Below, in pieces: positions 26,021 through 57,458 of a stretch of DNA of 64,000 nt. Source of the stretch: Thermoproteota archaeon (GTDB lineage Archaea > Thermoproteota > Nitrososphaeria > Nitrososphaerales > Nitrosopumilaceae); contig QQVN01000003.1 in the NCBI GenBank assembly GCA_003352285.1, positions 248,001 to 312,000 on the forward strand. The letters run 5' to 3'. A program made the translations under genes and the position numbers. A model generated the notes under the pieces. It worked only from the letters and a program-made list of their open reading frames with translations, was not told the DNA's origin and did not search any database. How positions within the stretch are numbered: the first letter of the stretch is position 1; the number at the start of each line of letters is the position of its first letter.

Positions 26021-26052
26021 GCATACCACAAGTTGCCCGTCATATACTAATA
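26021..26052 (+). promoter_or_regulatory. Conserved promoter element, copy 1
   Basis: GCATACCACAAGTTG starts here, and CTAATA begins exactly 26 bp downstream of its first base (26047). The ATG at 26074 is 27 bp beyond the CTAATA, as expected for a TATA element and a leaderless transcript. Seven copies of this arrangement occur in the window. Confidence 0.7.
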
Positions 26053-26073
26053 ATTCAAACGTGTATAGATATC

Positions 26074-26229
26074 ATGCCACTAACAGTGCTAAAACATAAC
26101 GACTCCATAGGACAAAACCTAGTTGAAAGTGAGGCCAAAAACCCTCTTTCAACTATTGGTTCAAAGACTAATTGGACATATGTTGCAGGATTATCATGGA
26201 TATTATTAGATGACGAGTTTGAATACTAA
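26074..26229 (+). CDS. 51-residue microprotein with conserved promoter
   Basis: An ORF of 51 codons directly downstream of promoter copy 1. The product has a polar N-terminal half and a Trp-rich C-terminal part (NWTYVAGLSWILLDDEFEY), possibly a short amphipathic or membrane-associated segment. It ends 50 bp before a large secreted fibronectin-III protein on the same strand, so the two may be cotranscribed. No family is recognised; the promoter position is the main evidence. Confidence 0.6.
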   Translation: MPLTVLKHNDSIGQNLVESEAKNPLSTIGSKTNWTYVAGLSWILLDDEFEY

Positions 26230-26279
26230 TGATATCAATCATTAGAAAATACTAAATAGAAAAACAGGTTTCATAAACA

Positions 26280-27962
26280 ATGCAAAAAACTCTCTTTACA
26301 CTTATCATATTATTTTCACTGTCCTTTATGATACTAAATAATCCAGTATACGCTCAATCATCAGCACCGGATCCAATTACAAATCTTGCAGCAGTTCCAG
26401 GTAATGGCTCAGTGCATCTTGTATGGTCGGCACCAGATAACAATGGCTCTCCAATTACAAGCTACAAAGTAATTCAATGGGTTACGGGTTCTGATACCTT
26501 TACGACATTTCCAAATTTGAGTAATACTGCATCAGTTACTGTAACTGGTTTAAAAAATAATGTATCATACAGCTTTAAAGTTTACGCAATCAACTCTGCA
26601 GGTACAAGTCTTGATTCAAATATTGTATCTGTCACCCCTACAGCTTCTGCACCTGCAACTGATGTTCCCGATGCAGTAACAAATCTTCAGGCAACAAGGG
26701 GAAATGGTAAAGTCAATTTGTCATGGACCACTCCTAACAGTAATGGCTCGCCAATCATAGGATACACTGTAACATATTGGCAAGTTGGTACCGATGCATT
26801 CAAAACTAAAAAAATTGATGGTGTAGCAACATCTACACAAATCACTGGTTTATCAAATGGTGTTCCATATGCTTTTAGAATAAATGCATTAAACAATATT
26901 GGAACTGGTCCTGATTCAAACGTTGACTCTGCAACCCCGTCTGAATCTGTAACTGCTTCTGCACCAAACCAAGTAAGGGGTCTTGTTGCTGTGCCAAGTA
27001 ATGGTCAAGTATTATTGTCATGGATAGAGCCCTCTGATAACGGCTCACCAATTACAAGCTATAAGGTAATAGCCAACGAAAAAGGCTCTAACACATTTAC
27101 AACTTATCCAAACCTAGGTGATTCTACCAAAGTCACCATTACAGGATTAAGAAACGATGTAACCTATGAATTCAAAGTGGTTGCAATAAATGCAATAGGC
27201 CAAAGTAAAGACTCCAATAAGGTATCTGCATCCCCAAATACCCGTGTTCCTATTGCAATAACAAATCTCAAGGCTACTCCTGGGGATGGAATGGTAACTC
27301 TAAACTGGTCAGTCTCATCTTCTGTTTTGGATTCTATTAGCAGCTATCGTGTACGTGAATACAGGCCAGGTGTAAGCACTTTTGTCACACATGAGATATT
27401 GGGAAAAGCAACTACTGCAACAATTGATGGTCTTACAAATGGAATCCCATATGGATTTAGAATTGTAGCTGTCAACTCTGAAGGAATTGGACCTGATTCT
27501 AGTACTGTTTATGCAACACCAATGCCAAAACCTGATGTATCAAAGACACCAAGTCAGGTTTTAAATCTCAAGGCAACCCCTGGAGATAAACAAGTTACTT
27601 TAACTTGGAACAAGCCTTTTGATAATGGTTCGCCAATAACTGGTTACAACATTATTCAATTCAAGACTGGATCTAACACATTTACAACAATTCCAAAGTC
27701 TGATGTCTCGACAAGTGCCGTTGTAACTGGACTAGTAAACAGTGTAAGTTACAACTTTAAAGTTTCAGCAATTAATGCAAACGGTGAAGGACTAGAATCA
27801 ACTGCAGTTTCTGTCGTACCATCTGCTCCTCAATCTAATCTGCAATTGCCTTCTTGGATAAAAAATAATGCTTTACTGTGGGCTGAAGGAAAGATTTCTG
27901 ACAAGGAATACGTTCAATCAATTGAATACTTGATTAACAATAAAATCATCAAGATAAAATAA
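26280..27962 (+). CDS. Secreted protein with five fibronectin type III domains and WIKN-type C-terminal module
   Basis: 560 residues. A signal peptide (1 to about 25, ending VYA) is followed by five FN3 repeats of about 95 residues, each opening P-x-x-V/I-x-x-L-x-A-x-x-G (near 33, 132, 230, 325 and 425). A closing module (about 525-560; WIKNNALLWAEGKISDKEYV) is shared with PstS in this window. It is probably a cell-surface adhesion or matrix protein. The FN3 repeats are similar enough to suggest internal duplication. Confidence 0.9.
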   Translation: MQKTLFTLIILFSLSFMILNNPVYAQSSAPDPITNLAAVPGNGSVHLVWSAPDNNGSPITSYKVIQWVTGSDTFTTFPNLSNTASVTVTGLKNNVSYSFKVYAINSAGTSLDSNIVSVTPTASAPATDVPDAVTNLQATRGNGKVNLSWTTPNSNGSPIIGYTVTYWQVGTDAFKTKKIDGVATSTQITGLSNGVPYAFRINALNNIGTGPDSNVDSATPSESVTASAPNQVRGLVAVPSNGQVLLSWIEPSDNGSPITSYKVIANEKGSNTFTTYPNLGDSTKVTITGLRNDVTYEFKVVAINAIGQSKDSNKVSASPNTRVPIAITNLKATPGDGMVTLNWSVSSSVLDSISSYRVREYRPGVSTFVTHEILGKATTATIDGLTNGIPYGFRIVAVNSEGIGPDSSTVYATPMPKPDVSKTPSQVLNLKATPGDKQVTLTWNKPFDNGSPITGYNIIQFKTGSNTFTTIPKSDVSTSAVVTGLVNSVSYNFKVSAINANGEGLESTAVSVVPSAPQSNLQLPSWIKNNALLWAEGKISDKEYVQSIEYLINNKIIKIK

Positions 27963-27968
27963 TCTACA

Positions 27969-28919
27969 TTAAGCAAAGAACAACGCAAAGAAAATAATTA
28001 TAATTATTATTGGCATCATCTTTCTCATCTTTGAATTAATTCTCTCTGCTTCTTTTTCCTTTTTGTGATCAATGTAACGCATCTGAATAACCATTGATAG
28101 TAAATTATTCAAAAAGAGCGAATATGCAATTATCATGATTTTATCCATCAGTGTGAGATATCCTATGGGTGGAAGTTGACCTGCAGCATTTAGATGTGCA
28201 GCAACTGCAGCTAAGAGAGTTGATGCCCCAAGTCCAATTCTTGCAGTAAAGTTTGTCGGACTCATCCAAAATGCTAGCATGGCAATTGTTGTAATTATTA
28301 GAACCGGAAATATGGTCTTCAAAAATGATGATAGGGGAAATCTCTCAATGTCTAATGCAAAGACATATCTTGAAAAAGTTGTGTTATCAGAATATTCATG
28401 CTCAGTAACATGGGCTTGACTTCCTTTTAGATTCCAGCCTGGAATGTTGACTAGCCCATCTATTCCAGTCTCAGCATCATCTACGACAAATTGTAATTTG
28501 TCGATTTCTTTGATTCCCTCAATTTCAATAGTTAATTGCAACTGCTCAAATGGATAATTTTTAAAATTCATATTTTTTTGAAAATTTCCTTTTATTCTTA
28601 CTTCATAATAATTTGGTTCAATCTTAATTGGGTCTACAGTTGCTTTACCATTCATGAATTCGATCTTTGGTGGTGACTCTACAAAGTTTTCATCATCTGA
28701 ACTAATCCATAGATAAAAATCCAAATCATATGTGCCCGTTTGCAGATCAATTTTTCCAACATTTAGTATGTATGTTCCAACTTTGTAGATTTTTGGATCT
28801 TCTGAATTATCATCTTCTGATTGGGCAAAAGAGTCATTTACAAATAGTGACAAAGAGATCACACAAAAAATCAAACCTACGAAAAAGTAATCATTTTTCT
28901 TTAATGTTGGTCTTGTCAA
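27969..28919 (-). CDS. Pentameric ligand-gated ion channel homologue (Cys-loop superfamily, prokaryotic)
   Basis: 316 residues. A signal peptide (to about 33) precedes an extracellular beta domain (about 40-205) with DLDFYLWISSDDENF and the diagnostic NYPFEQLQLTIEIEG, the prokaryotic Cys-loop-equivalent (F-P-F-D-x-Q-x-L). Four membrane helices follow: M1 FLKTIFPVLIITTIAMLAFW, M2 near RIGLGASTLLAAVAAHLNA, M3 LMDKIMIIAYSLFLNNLLSM and a C-terminal hydrophobic M4. Topology and order match ELIC/GLIC-type channels. The ligand and ion selectivity are unknown. Confidence 0.85.
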   Translation of the reverse strand: MTRPTLKKNDYFFVGLIFCVISLSLFVNDSFAQSEDDNSEDPKIYKVGTYILNVGKIDLQTGTYDLDFYLWISSDDENFVESPPKIEFMNGKATVDPIKIEPNYYEVRIKGNFQKNMNFKNYPFEQLQLTIEIEGIKEIDKLQFVVDDAETGIDGLVNIPGWNLKGSQAHVTEHEYSDNTTFSRYVFALDIERFPLSSFLKTIFPVLIITTIAMLAFWMSPTNFTARIGLGASTLLAAVAAHLNAAGQLPPIGYLTLMDKIMIIAYSLFLNNLLSMVIQMRYIDHKKEKEAERINSKMRKMMPIIIIIIFFALFFA

Positions 28920-28993
28920 TGCTCAGAGACGTGACAACTATCTGAGAATATTATTTTATCTTTTTTAACGAAAAGAAACCTTGAAAAAAAATA

Positions 28994-29025
28994 GCACGCC
29001 ACAAACTGCCCGTCATAGACTAATA
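28994..29025 (+). promoter_or_regulatory. Conserved promoter element, copy 2
   Basis: GCACGCCACAAACTGCCCG begins here, and CTAATA begins 26 bp later at 29020. The ATG at 29048 is 28 bp past that. It shares CTGCCCGTCATA (or TTGCCCGTCATA) with copy 1 in addition to the core. Confidence 0.7.
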
Positions 29026-29047
29026 TTCATCTGACAGTGGCTTTCTA

Positions 29048-29137
29048 ATGACTATAACAAGAATTCAAAACGAATCAATCAAAACATTCAATGTTGTTGT
29101 TGATCGTCTCACACGTGCATGGAACGAAATATTCTGA
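29048..29137 (+). CDS. 29-residue microprotein with conserved promoter
   Basis: A 29-codon ORF placed at the leaderless position behind promoter copy 2. The product is a single amphipathic helix ending RLTRAWNEIF. Its stop is six bases before the ATG of a secreted repeat protein, so it may act as an upstream coupled ORF as well as, or instead of, a functional peptide. Confidence 0.5.
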   Translation: MTITRIQNESIKTFNVVVDRLTRAWNEIF

Positions 29138-29143
29138 TAAAAG

Positions 29144-30178
29144 ATGACTAGAACCATTCTATTAGCAATTTTTGCTACAGTAATTTTACTCACCGGCACA
29201 GTGGCTACTCCATTAGGAATGTATCAAACAGCTGATGCTGTAAAATCCAAAGGAAATGAATCCACCGTAATAAACTCAAAAAAAGTTTGCGGTGACCGAT
29301 TATGCTCTGATCCTAAAGCACCAGTTGTAAAAAAATCTGAAAAGAAAGAAGAAACCAAAACAGTGCAAAAAGCAAAAGAAGAGTCTAAAGCTACTACAGT
29401 ACCTCCTACCAAAGATAACAAGGCAGAAGTAATGAAAGAAGCAAAAATGTCAGAAAAGACAGTATCTCTTACAAAAACTGTTACTGGTACTATGAAATCT
29501 TCCAAAGATCCTGGACTTGGACATGAAAATCATCAGTTAGCAATAATTCTCCCTCCAAGCGATAAAGTATATCGTGGGCATCTAACATACACTGCATCTG
29601 AACCCGTTCAACTAGTTGCCCTACATGGGCCATTAAAGACTGGAAAGGATAGAGGTCAGCCAATTTGGTCTACTGATGGAACTACAAAATATGGAATGAC
29701 GTTTGTTGATGACCAACGAGCATCTGGTGTATGGCAATTTGCTGGAAATGCACTTGCAGTACATACCATGAAAAAGGAGCCCTTCACTGTAACCTATTCT
29801 GTTACATATACAGAAAATGTTGTTGACAATGTAAAGGCCTTTAGAGGAACCATTTCTTCTGAAAAAGATCCTGGACTTGGACATGAAAATCATCAACTAG
29901 CAATGATACTTCCACCAAGTGATAAGGCGTATCGTGGAACATTAACATATGATGCATCTGAGCCGATTCAATTGATCTCATTGATTGGACCAATTAAGGA
30001 AGGCGAAATTCATCCTCCAACAACTTGGTCTCCAGATGGAAAGACAATTTATGGTATGATCTTTGTTGATCCAAAGAAATCAGCAGGAACTTGGATTTTC
30101 TCAGGTAATGCGTTAGCTGTTCATACAACAAAGACAACACCATTCACTGTAAGTTACTCAGTTGTCTTAACTGAGTGA
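29144..30178 (+). CDS. Secreted protein with two tandem approximately 108-residue domains
   Basis: 344 residues. A signal peptide (to about 32) is followed by KKVCGDRLC, a Lys/Glu-rich linker (about 60-110), and two near-identical domains (about 120-228 and 235-344). Each opens KDPGLGHENHQLA, continues ILPPSDK.YRG.LTY.ASEP and ends GNALAVHT...PFTV.YSV. The His/Asn-rich GHENHQ motif could bind metal, which is inference. The VCGxxxC motif recurs in the secreted protein at 57466, which also follows a microORF and the same promoter element. Confidence 0.8.
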   Translation: MTRTILLAIFATVILLTGTVATPLGMYQTADAVKSKGNESTVINSKKVCGDRLCSDPKAPVVKKSEKKEETKTVQKAKEESKATTVPPTKDNKAEVMKEAKMSEKTVSLTKTVTGTMKSSKDPGLGHENHQLAIILPPSDKVYRGHLTYTASEPVQLVALHGPLKTGKDRGQPIWSTDGTTKYGMTFVDDQRASGVWQFAGNALAVHTMKKEPFTVTYSVTYTENVVDNVKAFRGTISSEKDPGLGHENHQLAMILPPSDKAYRGTLTYDASEPIQLISLIGPIKEGEIHPPTTWSPDGKTIYGMIFVDPKKSAGTWIFSGNALAVHTTKTTPFTVSYSVVLTE

Positions 30179-30204
30179 TTTTTTTATTTTTTAAAATATA
30201 ATTA

Positions 30205-30270
30205 GAGCAATACTGGTTATACCGCTTTGGTTCGAGGGTACCTATACAGCATGTTATACCAGTTATGCTC
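30205..30270. repeat. Imperfect long inverted repeat downstream of a secreted-protein gene
   Basis: Arms 30205-30222 (GAGCAATACTGGTTATAC) and 30253-30270 (GTTATACCAGTTATGCTC) pair at 13 of 18 positions around a 30 bp loop containing GGTACC. It could form an RNA hairpin at the 3' end of the upstream mRNA or be a protein-binding site. Confidence 0.5.
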
Positions 30271-30333
30271 GGATGGTTGTTTTATGTGAAATTTTTATTT
30301 ATTGATAGCGTAACAATTGTGGAGTGCCTAAAG

Positions 30334-30365
30334 GCATGCCACAAGTTGTTATCAAATTCCAAATA
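30334..30365 (+). promoter_or_regulatory. Conserved promoter element, copy 3
   Basis: GCATGCCACAAGTTG begins here and CAAATA begins 26 bp downstream at 30360, 30 bp before the ATG at 30390. It lies inside the longest open frame, so it argues that the real gene starts at 30390 and not at 30324. Confidence 0.65.
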
Positions 30366-30389
30366 ATTCCTGATTATACACTGTCTAAT

Positions 30390-31172
30390 ATGCCTAAAAC
30401 AGAAAAATTCATCGGCAAAAACGCAAACATCGAAAGAATAGCAACACGAATAGAGAATTACCTCACAGAAAACAAGTTTGAAGTGGCATTTTCCCGTGAT
30501 GTCTCCGGCGAAAGCCACACCTACCTCATCCAGGCCAGAAAATCTGGATTAATCCGAACCGTTTCAGGTTCAAGAAGAAGTACAGATATCACCATATCTG
30601 GCCAACCAAATAACTTTGAGATAAAAGTTGGAACAGGGGAGTGGGGTAAAAACTTGGTAACTTCTGCACCATTGTTTGTGATTCCTTTAGTGGGGATTGC
30701 AACTACTGTAACAAAACTATACACTGCAAAGAAGTTTGAAGACAATCTGTGGTCTTTTGTAAAAGATCAAGTAAAATACCTAGAAAATACTCACACAAAG
30801 GATCAAACAAATCTTAAAGAATACCCATGTGAATATGTAGAGGGATATTCTGAATGGAAGTCTCCTATCCGTGATTGCAAGTTGTTTCTTGAATATAACT
30901 CTGGTAACAGTTGTATTATACTCAAGACTTCAATTGAACAAGGACTAAAAATTCCAGCAACAAAAATTGAGAGTGCAAAGATTATCATGAAAAGATCAAA
31001 AGAAAATACTGATGATCGCATGATTCAGATCACTTTTAGAGATGATCATGACAAAAAGCGCAGCCCAATCTTTAACTTTGATGATGATATCATCAGAGGA
31101 GTATTAGCTGGAATTGATGAGCTAGTTAGTGAGACAAAACTTCAACAAATGACACTAGCAATTAAACACTAG
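30390..31172 (+). CDS. Hypothetical protein, 260 residues
   Basis: The open frame begins at 30324, but conserved promoter copy 3 lies within its first codons and positions the start at ATG 30390 (MPKTEKFIGKNANIERIATR). The product has an N-terminal alpha/beta region (IENYLTENKFEVAFSRDVSGESHTYLIQARK), a short hydrophobic segment (SAPLFVIPLVGIATTV, about 95-112) that could insert in a membrane, and a soluble C-terminal half. No catalytic motif is recognised. Poly-T tracts at 31173-31200 probably terminate it. Confidence 0.65.
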   Translation: MPKTEKFIGKNANIERIATRIENYLTENKFEVAFSRDVSGESHTYLIQARKSGLIRTVSGSRRSTDITISGQPNNFEIKVGTGEWGKNLVTSAPLFVIPLVGIATTVTKLYTAKKFEDNLWSFVKDQVKYLENTHTKDQTNLKEYPCEYVEGYSEWKSPIRDCKLFLEYNSGNSCIILKTSIEQGLKIPATKIESAKIIMKRSKENTDDRMIQITFRDDHDKKRSPIFNFDDDIIRGVLAGIDELVSETKLQQMTLAIKH

Positions 31173-31200
31173 TTCTTTTCTTTTTTATTTTTATTTTTTT
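31173..31200 (+). terminator. T-rich terminator
   Basis: Runs of T (TTTTCTTTTTTATTTTTATTTT) directly after the stop, just ahead of the next promoter element. This is the usual form of archaeal intrinsic termination. Confidence 0.5.
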
Positions 31201-31205
31201 TCAAG

Positions 31206-31237
31206 GCATGCCACATTTACTACGACATCATCAAATA
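31206..31237 (+). promoter_or_regulatory. Conserved promoter element, copy 4
   Basis: GCATGCCACATTT begins here, and CAAATA begins 26 bp downstream (31232). The downstream TTG start at 31267 is 35 bp beyond, leaving a short leader. The core is less complete after CCACA than in other copies. Confidence 0.6.
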
Positions 31238-31266
31238 ATATTTTCATTACGTTACCTTGATAACAT

Positions 31267-31632
31267 TTGATAAAGGTACAACAAATCTCAAAATATCAAA
31301 ACGGTTGTGAAAAAATTCTACAAATACCTGGAGTACGTTTTGCAGCCTTGATAAACAACAAAGGAAGAATAATCAGTGGAGGGATAAGCGAGAAAGTGAT
31401 TCCATACGAAAAAGACGAAGAAAAGAGAAATGTTTTGTTTATGGAAATTGCACTTGATCTAACAATGCGAAAAGAATTCACAAATACCTTGGGCAGCATA
31501 CATGCTATAGTATCATATCGTGACAGAGTCAACATTATAACAATCCCTCATGATGAGAACTTCATTCTTTTGTCTGTAGAGCCAGAATTAGATTCTCAAA
31601 AAATTATAGAACTAGTTAGAGAATTAGTATAA
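31267..31632 (+). CDS. DUF6659-like protein, paralogue 2
   Basis: 121 residues starting at TTG. The family core VRFAALINNKGRIISGGISEKV is followed by a helix with EEKRNVLFMEIALDLTMRKEF, a strand pair HAIVSYRDRVNIITIPHDENFILLSVEP and a closing helix. It is most similar in pattern to the gene at 42780 (shared E/D-x-x-R-K...VRTRQ/LTMRKEF block). It is driven by promoter copy 4. Function unknown; a roadblock-like signalling fold is plausible. Confidence 0.7.
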   Translation: MIKVQQISKYQNGCEKILQIPGVRFAALINNKGRIISGGISEKVIPYEKDEEKRNVLFMEIALDLTMRKEFTNTLGSIHAIVSYRDRVNIITIPHDENFILLSVEPELDSQKIIELVRELV

Positions 31633-31697
31633 TTCTGGAATTTTCTTTTTTTCATGCCTAATTTTAGTATTTTTTAGGCATCATTTAGTCAATTAAG

Positions 31698-31729
31698 GCA
31701 TACCACAAGTTGCACGGTATGCACTAATA
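31698..31729 (+). promoter_or_regulatory. Conserved promoter element, copy 5
   Basis: GCATACCACAAGTTGCACGG begins here, CTAATA begins 26 bp downstream (31724), and the ATG at 31751 lies 27 bp further. This is the closest copy to copy 1. Confidence 0.7.
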
Positions 31730-31750
31730 TTTTCTTCACGTAATAGTACC

Positions 31751-31975
31751 ATGAGCCAACTACTCTTTAAATCAAGGCAACCCCAGCATAAAGAAACTCT
31801 GGTTGAAAGCATACCAGTAAAAGAAGGGCAAAAACTTTACAATAAATGCGTACTTTGTTCAGGCCTAAAACATGTCATGTTGACATGTGGTATATGTAAC
31901 AAATCAATAACACTGCAATGTGGACGTTGTGGTAAAGGATCTTGGTCTGAAGAAAACCACAGTAATTGTGTGTAA
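31751..31975 (+). CDS. Zinc-ribbon protein with conserved promoter
   Basis: 74 residues. A polar N-terminal half is followed by CVLC...CGIC...CGRC with a closing H-x-x-x-C (HSNC), enough ligands for two zinc sites. The ATG is exactly at the leaderless position behind promoter copy 5. Likely a small cytoplasmic regulatory or adaptor protein; no DNA-binding domain is visible. Confidence 0.7.
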   Translation: MSQLLFKSRQPQHKETLVESIPVKEGQKLYNKCVLCSGLKHVMLTCGICNKSITLQCGRCGKGSWSEENHSNCV

Positions 31976-32063
31976 ACAAAGCAAAACGTGTTGAATAGAA
32001 TTGGTTTCGATTTTTCAAGAAACCATCTTCAGTACGTTGAAAATTTTATAATTCGTGATTTAA

Positions 32064-32090
32064 ATAGAAATTGAAATAGAAATTGAAATA
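32064..32090. repeat. Short tandem repeat, 12 bp unit
   Basis: ATAGAAATTGAA is present twice in tandem followed by a partial third copy, inside a 332 bp gene-free stretch (31976-32307) that otherwise holds only AT-rich sequence and promoter copy 6. Confidence 0.6.
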
Positions 32091-32241
32091 TTTTAAACAA
32101 AAATAACATCTGAACTAGTAACCTAATCAATTCATGTGCTAGTCTAGAATTATTTCTGACATACAAATTTCCACAACATTGATTTATAACAATTCAATCA
32201 GGCACGATGAATTAATTATAACGAAATCATAATACATCTAA

Positions 32242-32273
32242 GCATACCGCAACATCAAAATAATTTTTTAATA
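32242..32273 (+). promoter_or_regulatory. Conserved promoter element, copy 6
   Basis: GCATACCGCAACATC begins here, and TTAATA begins 26 bp downstream (32268). The ATG at 32308 is 40 bp beyond, so a short leader is expected. The core differs at one position (CCGCA for CCACA). Confidence 0.55.
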
Positions 32274-32307
32274 ATTTTTTATCCATATGCGCAATCGGTG
32301 AATTACA

Positions 32308-32979
32308 ATGTACGACACGACCGTATATCAAAACATCTCTGGTTCATCAGATTCTTTTTTAAAAAAATTTGATGGATATAGAAAACTTACCAAACCAAAT
32401 CATAAAAAATCTATACCTGTTTTGTTTGGTATGATTATGTCCCTGATGGTAGGGGGCATGACCATCCTGCCTGAGAATGCCTACTCCGAAGAGCAAAGTT
32501 CAATTGACCAAATACGACTAGAAGCAGAAGCAGAATTTGCAAATGAAATACAAAAAGCCAAATCAATCCTTAATGAAATTAAAAACAATCCCAACTCTAA
32601 TGAGCAAGACATAGAGCTAGCAATGATTGAATACAAAAAATCCGTAGCAATTGCAAAACAGATTAGAGACGAAAAAATTCAAAATGCTCAATTGACTCTG
32701 GAAAAGATTTCTACCGTCCCTAAAATTAGCCTTGCAGATGCACGAAAACAACTAAAATTAACCGTGGATACTGCCCATGAGCAATTACAAAAAGCAATAG
32801 AATCTGCCAAGTCTGCTTATGATTCTGCAATTAGAGATGCATTGGGAGACAAAGGTCTTGAAAAACAAGCTGAATTAGAATATGAATCAGCACTCAAAAC
32901 TGCCAAAGAGACATACAACAAAATAGTGTATGAGGCAACCAAGCAATATCAGAAAATGAGAGACGTCATCAATGTATGA
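32308..32979 (+). CDS. Exported or anchored coiled-coil protein
   Basis: 223 residues. A 35-residue basic N-terminus precedes a hydrophobic helix (about 37-55; VLFGMIMSLMVGGMTIL) ending at AYSEE, so it could be a signal or an anchor with an unusually long n-region. The rest is coiled coil rich in Ala, Glu and Lys with internally repetitive segments (YKKSVAIAKQIRDEKIQNAQ; YESALKTAKETYNKIVYEA). It is likely extracytoplasmic and filamentous. No catalytic motif. Confidence 0.7.
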   Translation: MYDTTVYQNISGSSDSFLKKFDGYRKLTKPNHKKSIPVLFGMIMSLMVGGMTILPENAYSEEQSSIDQIRLEAEAEFANEIQKAKSILNEIKNNPNSNEQDIELAMIEYKKSVAIAKQIRDEKIQNAQLTLEKISTVPKISLADARKQLKLTVDTAHEQLQKAIESAKSAYDSAIRDALGDKGLEKQAELEYESALKTAKETYNKIVYEATKQYQKMRDVINV

Positions 32980-57270: not shown

Positions 57271-57301
57271 GCATGCCACAATTTCTTAGTTATTCCTAAT
57301 A
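57271..57301 (+). promoter_or_regulatory. Conserved promoter element, copy 7
   Basis: GCATGCCACAATTTC begins here, and CTAATA begins 25 bp downstream at 57296; the ATG at 57324 is 28 bp further. This copy lies 25 kb away from the other six. Confidence 0.65.
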
Positions 57302-57323: not shown

Positions 57324-57458
57324 ATGTATGAAAATAAAATAAAAACAGAATATTCTGTTAGAAAAGCATGGGATAAGCTAGAAGGCATTCCACTAGAAGA
57401 GATTGAACACTTTGATAATTTTATGAAAGATTATCAAAGTACAAGAAAAAACAAGTAG
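57324..57458 (+). CDS. 44-residue microprotein with conserved promoter
   Basis: ORF of 44 codons at the leaderless position of promoter copy 7. The product is charged and helical (VRKAWDKLEGIPLEEIEHFD), with no cysteines. Its stop is seven bases before the start of the secreted protein at 57466, the same layout as at 29048/29144. Confidence 0.5.
   Translation: MYENKIKTEYSVRKAWDKLEGIPLEEIEHFDNFMKDYQSTRKNK

Follow-up and report, generated by a model that had tools for sequence, protein, structure and literature searches.

A fixed-spacing promoter element of Nitrosopumilaceae and its probable regulator, a predicted winged-helix protein encoded with a histidine kinase and a stand-alone receiver

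Approximately 75% of thaumarchaeal response regulators consist of a REC domain only, and some of them adjoin HTH genes (Galperin et al. 2018; PMC5847659). The interaction of these stand-alone receivers with the neighbouring HTH proteins remains to be shown; the output of archaeal two-component systems has been argued to be mostly not transcriptional, and how most stand-alone receivers of ammonia-oxidizing archaea act could not be explained there (PMC5847659). In the pairs described there, the genes are divergent, the HTH protein is of the ArsR type (arCOG03067) and no target sites are given. The FilI/FilR1 and LtrK/LtrR systems (PMC5847659) exemplify kinase-driven control of transcription with a winged-helix/HTH output, in which the receiver and the HTH are fused.

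Regulons and two-component systems are known kinds. The case presented here, from a Nitrosopumilaceae archaeon, resembles the stand-alone receiver systems in that a kinase, a REC-only regulator and a separate predicted DNA-binding protein are encoded together. It differs from the described pairs in that (i) the genes are arranged tail-to-tail, (ii) the predicted DNA-binding protein belongs to a winged-helix family lacking a Pfam model, and (iii) a genome-wide cis element and a gene set can be assigned to it. With FilI/FilR1 and LtrK/LtrR it shares kinase-driven control of transcription through a winged-helix/HTH output, here predicted, whereas its components are encoded by separate genes and its targets are small proteins and envelope proteins. 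The searchable literature yielded no split kinase/receiver/winged-helix system of ammonia-oxidizing archaea for which an operator and a set of targets had been identified. Archaeal activators bound just upstream of the BRE/TATA region are exemplified by Ptr2. The sites described below are similarly placed, about 45-55 bp upstream of the start and adjoining a weak TATA box; they differ from those of Ptr2 in that each promoter carries a single, rigidly spaced, asymmetric site and probably a leaderless start, and no sequence relationship to Ptr2 was found.

An earlier note on this DNA had listed six copies of a motif in the window (the whole 64,000-nucleotide stretch analysed), at positions 26021, 28994, 30334, 31206, 31698 and 32242. 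All six coordinates are correct, and a TATA-like hexamer begins exactly 26 bp after the first base of the motif at each of them, as the note had stated. Our inspection added a seventh exact site and a weaker copy, both absent from the earlier list. The predicted regulon promoters are:

26021..26052, plus strand: GCATACCACA, 16-bp spacer, CTAATA (matrix score 31.7)
28994..29025, plus strand: GCACGCCACA, spacer, CTAATA (matrix score 36.4)
30334..30365, plus strand: GCATGCCACA, spacer, CAAATA (matrix score 27.6)
31206..31237, plus strand: GCATGCCACA, spacer, CAAATA (matrix score 27.2)
31698..31729, plus strand: GCATACCACA, perfect inverted repeat GCATACC-N11-GGTATGC, CTAATA (matrix score 35.7)
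32242..32273, plus strand: GCATACCGCA, spacer, TTAATA, the weakest of the six (matrix score 25.5)
57271..57301, plus strand: seventh exact site GCATGCCACA, CTAATA one base closer
30296..30327, minus strand: weaker back-to-back copy GCACTCCACA...AAATA, found with the matrix, no ORF downstream

The pattern GCAYRCCRCA occurs seven times in the 64-kb window, always on the plus strand, against 0.35 matches expected, and none of 100 shuffled windows reached this number. The six sites score 25.5-36.4 with a matrix derived from relatives; reversed, the matrix scores no higher than 10.6 anywhere in the window. The element does not correspond to a known RNA, as scans of the region with Rfam and tRNA models gave no matches. 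The minus-strand copy (30327) and the site at 30334 stand back to back as the inverted repeat TTGTGGAGTGCCTAAAGGCATGCCACAA (30296-30365); since nothing coding lies leftward of them, the minus-strand copy may direct a non-coding transcript or be a relic.

The start codons of the six downstream genes, ATG in all cases except the TTG of the gene at 31267, lie 27, 28, 30, 35, 27 and 40 bp past the first base of the hexamer, i.e. within the 27-40 bp reported before, and 53, 54, 56, 61, 53 and 66 bp from the first base of the motif, respectively. The genes following the seven exact sites are:

26074..26229, plus strand: 51-aa 'GLSW' microprotein, ATG at +53 from the motif
29048..29137, plus strand: putative 29-aa ORF, ATG at +54
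30390..31172, plus strand: 260-aa protein, ATG at +56
31267..31632, plus strand: DUF6659 protein (PF20364, E 8.8e-12), TTG at +61
31751..31975, plus strand: 74-aa zinc-ribbon microprotein, ATG at +53
32308..32979, plus strand: 223-aa coiled-coil protein, ATG at +66
57324..57458, plus strand: 44-aa ORF, ATG at +53 (site 57271)

The 44-aa ORF is also present downstream of the orthologous site in a second genome (G001). The zinc-ribbon protein encoded at 31751 has an N-terminal PVKEGxKL segment common to the GLSW microproteins. Directly after the 29-aa ORF begins a gene (29144-30178, plus strand) for a protein with two tandem DPGLGHENHQLAxxLPPSDKxYRG repeats; the promoter at 28994 may actually serve this gene, as the second one of its transcript. 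Two further genes lie in this part of the window. The first (26280-27962, plus strand) is located between two of the regulon promoters without having one of its own, and encodes a secreted protein with five fibronectin type III domains (PF00041). The product of the second (27969-28919, minus strand) contains the membrane domain of neurotransmitter-gated ion channels (PF02932, E 6e-7) and is likely an archaeal pentameric ligand-gated channel.

We performed the scan of the whole genome and of related genomes that had been proposed together with the regulon; it supports the regulon, the motif, the TATA offset and the start offset being fixed together. When the architecture was defined as the decamer, a gap of 14-18 and AATA, the genome itself yielded 13 matches versus none for the reversed pattern, and 121 genomes of the family yielded 178 versus 23, with about 5-6 per genome in many relatives. 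From 107 distinct sites, the consensus GCATRCCRCAAAYT...ARYTATTGACWAATA was derived. We determined offsets for all 139 decamers present in the fetched loci (773 kb in total), irrespective of the sequence that follows; as many of these loci had been fetched for sites found with the looser spacing (14-18), the counts describe spacing and not genome-wide frequency: AATA begins at +28 in 83 of the 139, every other offset being represented by only a few, and ATG is found at +53 or +54 in 80. Five matches to the strict pattern in genome G031, an apparent counter-example, did not score with the profile and were treated as chance. No report of the motif in archaea was found in the searchable literature, a weak negative given that the coverage lacked most subscription journals.

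Absence of the motif upstream of orthologues had been named in advance as evidence against the regulon, and for the two window genes compared the outcome is mixed. The 32-bp site at 31698, preceding the gene at 31751, is letter-identical in the sister species. In contrast, the site of the gene at 30390 is kept only in the G059 orthologue and is absent at the start of 13 other orthologues examined. The core architecture is conserved and the membership of the regulon turns over.

The reverse complement of GCATRCC recurs at motif positions 19-25 with 3.61 of 7 matches (70 sites), the maximum over offsets in 1000 shuffles being 2.63. This partial dyad points to a dimer occupying a strong half-site and, beside the TATA box, a weak one; covariation between dyad positions 5 and 21 was not significant (Fisher p 0.25). 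The bases of the central spacer are near background, and those adjoining the box are partly conserved. In front of the ordinary large ORFs of these loci, TTATA/TATAT is enriched at -34 to -22, in the light of which CWAATA appears to be a weak box that would need help. As the ATG is located 27 bp past the box, the transcripts of the regulon are probably leaderless.

At the expected distance from the sites begin 102 ORFs of at least 25 aa. A single linked family of small proteins (47-114 aa) accounts for 62 of them, about half of its members containing two CxxC pairs and about half ending in a GLSW motif. The remainder includes (i) a 1748-aa S-layer-like protein (NCBIfam match below the cut-off), (ii) a secreted family of approximately 190 aa, (iii) the 260-aa protein of the window and (iv) a 66-aa protein. 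The predicted products belong mostly to one superfamily of small zinc-ribbon/'GLSW' proteins, to which an S-layer-like protein is added. The description of the window genes as unrelated holds only in part: the products of 26074 and 31751 are members of one widespread small-protein family. In one relative (G037:C62, L223 1282), the gene under the motif encodes a 115-aa HTH-like protein, which raises the possibility that the regulon feeds into another regulator.

That many of these genes are paralogues, and that the sites cluster, would also be expected if the shared sequence stemmed not from regulation but from recent duplication of a promoter together with its gene, or from a small mobile repeat. 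We regard this as very improbable: fixed motif, box and offsets contrast with a central spacer near background, unrelated genes (those of the S-layer-like, 260-aa, DUF6659 and 66-aa proteins) have this layout in front of them as well, and the abundance of the motif depends on the presence of a candidate regulator gene.

This gene, encoding a protein of about 288 aa designated P0001, is part of a conserved module of approximately 3.2 kb, around which the sites cluster in relatives. In the genome studied here, the module lies on a contig other than that of the window:

G000:C5:266450-269670: module comprising the genes of P0001, a 121-aa CheY-like receiver and a membrane histidine kinase
G000:C5:266450-267316 (locus L050:8450-9316), outside the window: P0001 gene

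The receiver gene is tail-to-tail with the P0001 gene, and the histidine kinase gene adjoins. The kinase contains HisKA, HATPase and HAMP domains (and a dCache match below the cut-off); a HisKA/HATPase kinase and a Response_reg receiver are thus encoded together, as is typical of a two-component system. They do not form a fused REC-HTH response regulator, the 121-aa receiver consisting of REC only and P0001 having no REC. In 28 of 30 relatives, close homologues of the kinase and the receiver adjoin the P0001 gene; the two exceptions are a copy in G040 without a kinase match and G094, whose neighbouring genes are only distant homologues.

Searches of P0001 against Pfam and NCBIfam gave no match above the cut-off, and a search of PDB sequences with the profile of the winged-helix protein returned chance matches only. 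AlphaFold2, run on 27 relatives, gave a confident model (pLDDT 87; 87-88 for the predicted fold), in which residues 41-122 form three successive helices followed by a two-strand wing. The full-length model had no significant match in Foldseek, whereas the top matches of the isolated domain were nearly all winged-helix DNA-binding proteins (PadR, LmrR, MarR, HxlR, ArsR-like; E 0.007-0.06). PadR, MarR and LmrR regulators thus possess the folds nearest to the predicted DNA-binding domain; P0001 differs from them in its extra N- and C-terminal helical parts, and in the absence of any significant profile match to PadR, MarR or ArsR the resemblance is one of fold. With a best Foldseek E value of 0.007 and no Pfam match above the cut-off, DNA binding by P0001 is deduced from structure, and is likely. 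Among 296 genomes of the class, the family is almost confined to Nitrosopumilaceae, its named hosts including Nitrosopumilus, Nitrosarchaeum and Nitrosotenuis.

The constant neighbourhood of kinase and receiver is one of four observations that link P0001 with the motif. Another is that presence of P0001 and abundance of the motif go together. At least 3 sites were found in 21 of 24 genomes with a close P0001 relative and in 3 of 97 without one (Fisher 2e-17), and none of 100,000 within-genus permutations reached the observed count. The three low-site genomes with a P0001 relative (G012, G040 and G109) do have profile-level sites, and in G081 strict sites are present, yet a P0001 relative was not detected. 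The motif is therefore conserved across species and tied to the presence of the candidate factor.

The earlier note had offered two kinds of interpretation, a transcription factor site or a TFB-specific one. In the latter case, a TFB (or TBP) paralogue would recognise these promoters and the element would be a special core-promoter signal. TFB genes are indeed numerous (about 9 in this genome, judging from 18 domain matches), the motif keeps a rigid distance from the TATA box and the bases adjoining the box are partly conserved. TFB reads the BRE adjoining the TATA box, and the position of the decamer is beyond its reach: 16 bp separate the end of the decamer from the box, which places it outside the BRE position. 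Moreover, TFB numbers, compared as totals, do not separate the two groups of genomes, the domain matches (12-22 with the motif, 6-20 without it, within the same genera) overlapping, and the winged-helix protein segregates with the motif far better. The gap and the overlap both weaken the TFB-specific interpretation, which we consider improbable; the segregation with P0001 favours a dedicated factor.

A further line of evidence comes from the P0001 gene itself, whose start codon is overlapped by the motif in antisense orientation (TGYGGYATGCC). Nearly all close relatives of P0001 show the same arrangement, as do many paralogues with identities down to 45%; it is missing in about 7 paralogues. 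Since an ATG is embedded in it here, the motif was also considered as a translation or RNA signal; this was rejected, because at other genes the ATG is located 53 bp past the motif. At the embedded sites, base 8 of the motif is A where residue 91 of the protein is A/S and G where it is D/E, and the listed sites of single-type genomes agree in 31/31 (A/S type) and 34/34 (D/E type) cases. Residue 91 is located in the hairpin just past the predicted recognition helix. The proteins of the A/S type form one clade, so that the correlation amounts to a single evolutionary event; it is suggestive of a tie between P0001 and the motif, and is not proof.

An antisense motif at the start codon would equally be expected of a target gene, and zinc-ribbon proteins are encoded beside most modules as well as under the motif. 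Another factor, e.g. one of the small zinc-ribbon proteins encoded beside the module, might accordingly bind the motif, with the winged-helix gene merely one of its targets. Against this, each P0001 orthologue or diverged paralogue carries at its ATG a motif variant of its own, which follows both the protein clade and residue 91; a mere target gene would have no need to diverge together with its operator. The conserved module also shows no other recognised DNA-binding protein. We judge this alternative unlikely.

The sites with their fixed spacing and distribution, the module, and a motif overlapping the P0001 start codon were observed directly. Starting from these, we consider it probable that a dedicated transcription factor, most likely P0001, binds the element, that the six window genes belong to its regulon, and that the whole constitutes an autoregulated split two-component system activating weak-TATA promoters. 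The kinase would sense an extracytoplasmic signal, as suggested by its cache-like region, and phosphorylate the stand-alone receiver, which in turn would tune the winged-helix protein P0001 by contact, a step proposed from the adjacency of the genes. A P0001 dimer would bind GCATRCCRCA and the weaker inverted half-site 11 bp away and, positioned about 26 bp upstream of the weak CWAATA box, recruit the basal machinery, a leaderless mRNA then beginning at or beside the ATG. The output would consist of small zinc-ribbon and GLSW proteins and of envelope proteins, including the S-layer-like protein. Judging from the position of the sites, P0001 would activate rather than repress the promoters of the regulon; at its own gene, where the site covers the start, binding should repress.

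The locus offers a case that is concrete and can be tested, in which kinase, receiver, candidate DNA-binding protein, operator and targets can all be named, in organisms that are hard to manipulate genetically and whose signalling outputs are mostly unknown, and for which it names a likely master regulator. Dozens of small zinc-ribbon and GLSW proteins that lack annotation also receive a likely class of function, and the motif provides a sequence marker for reading existing transcriptomes.

A broader interpretation, whose chances we see as evenly balanced, is that of a Nitrosopumilaceae-specific system in which kinase and stand-alone receiver act through a previously undescribed winged-helix family, duplicated into several modules per genome. 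Each paralogue would have an operator variant across its own start, giving parallel autoregulated regulons that control zinc-ribbon/GLSW proteins and the S-layer via leaderless promoters. The genome studied here encodes a second winged-helix paralogue (locus L112, G000:C2:240001-256000), with the variant motif GCATACCGCATTTGGGTTGGTATTCTGATATA over its own start, and a site at C5:422720 (GCATACC-N11-GGTATGG) may belong to this paralogue.
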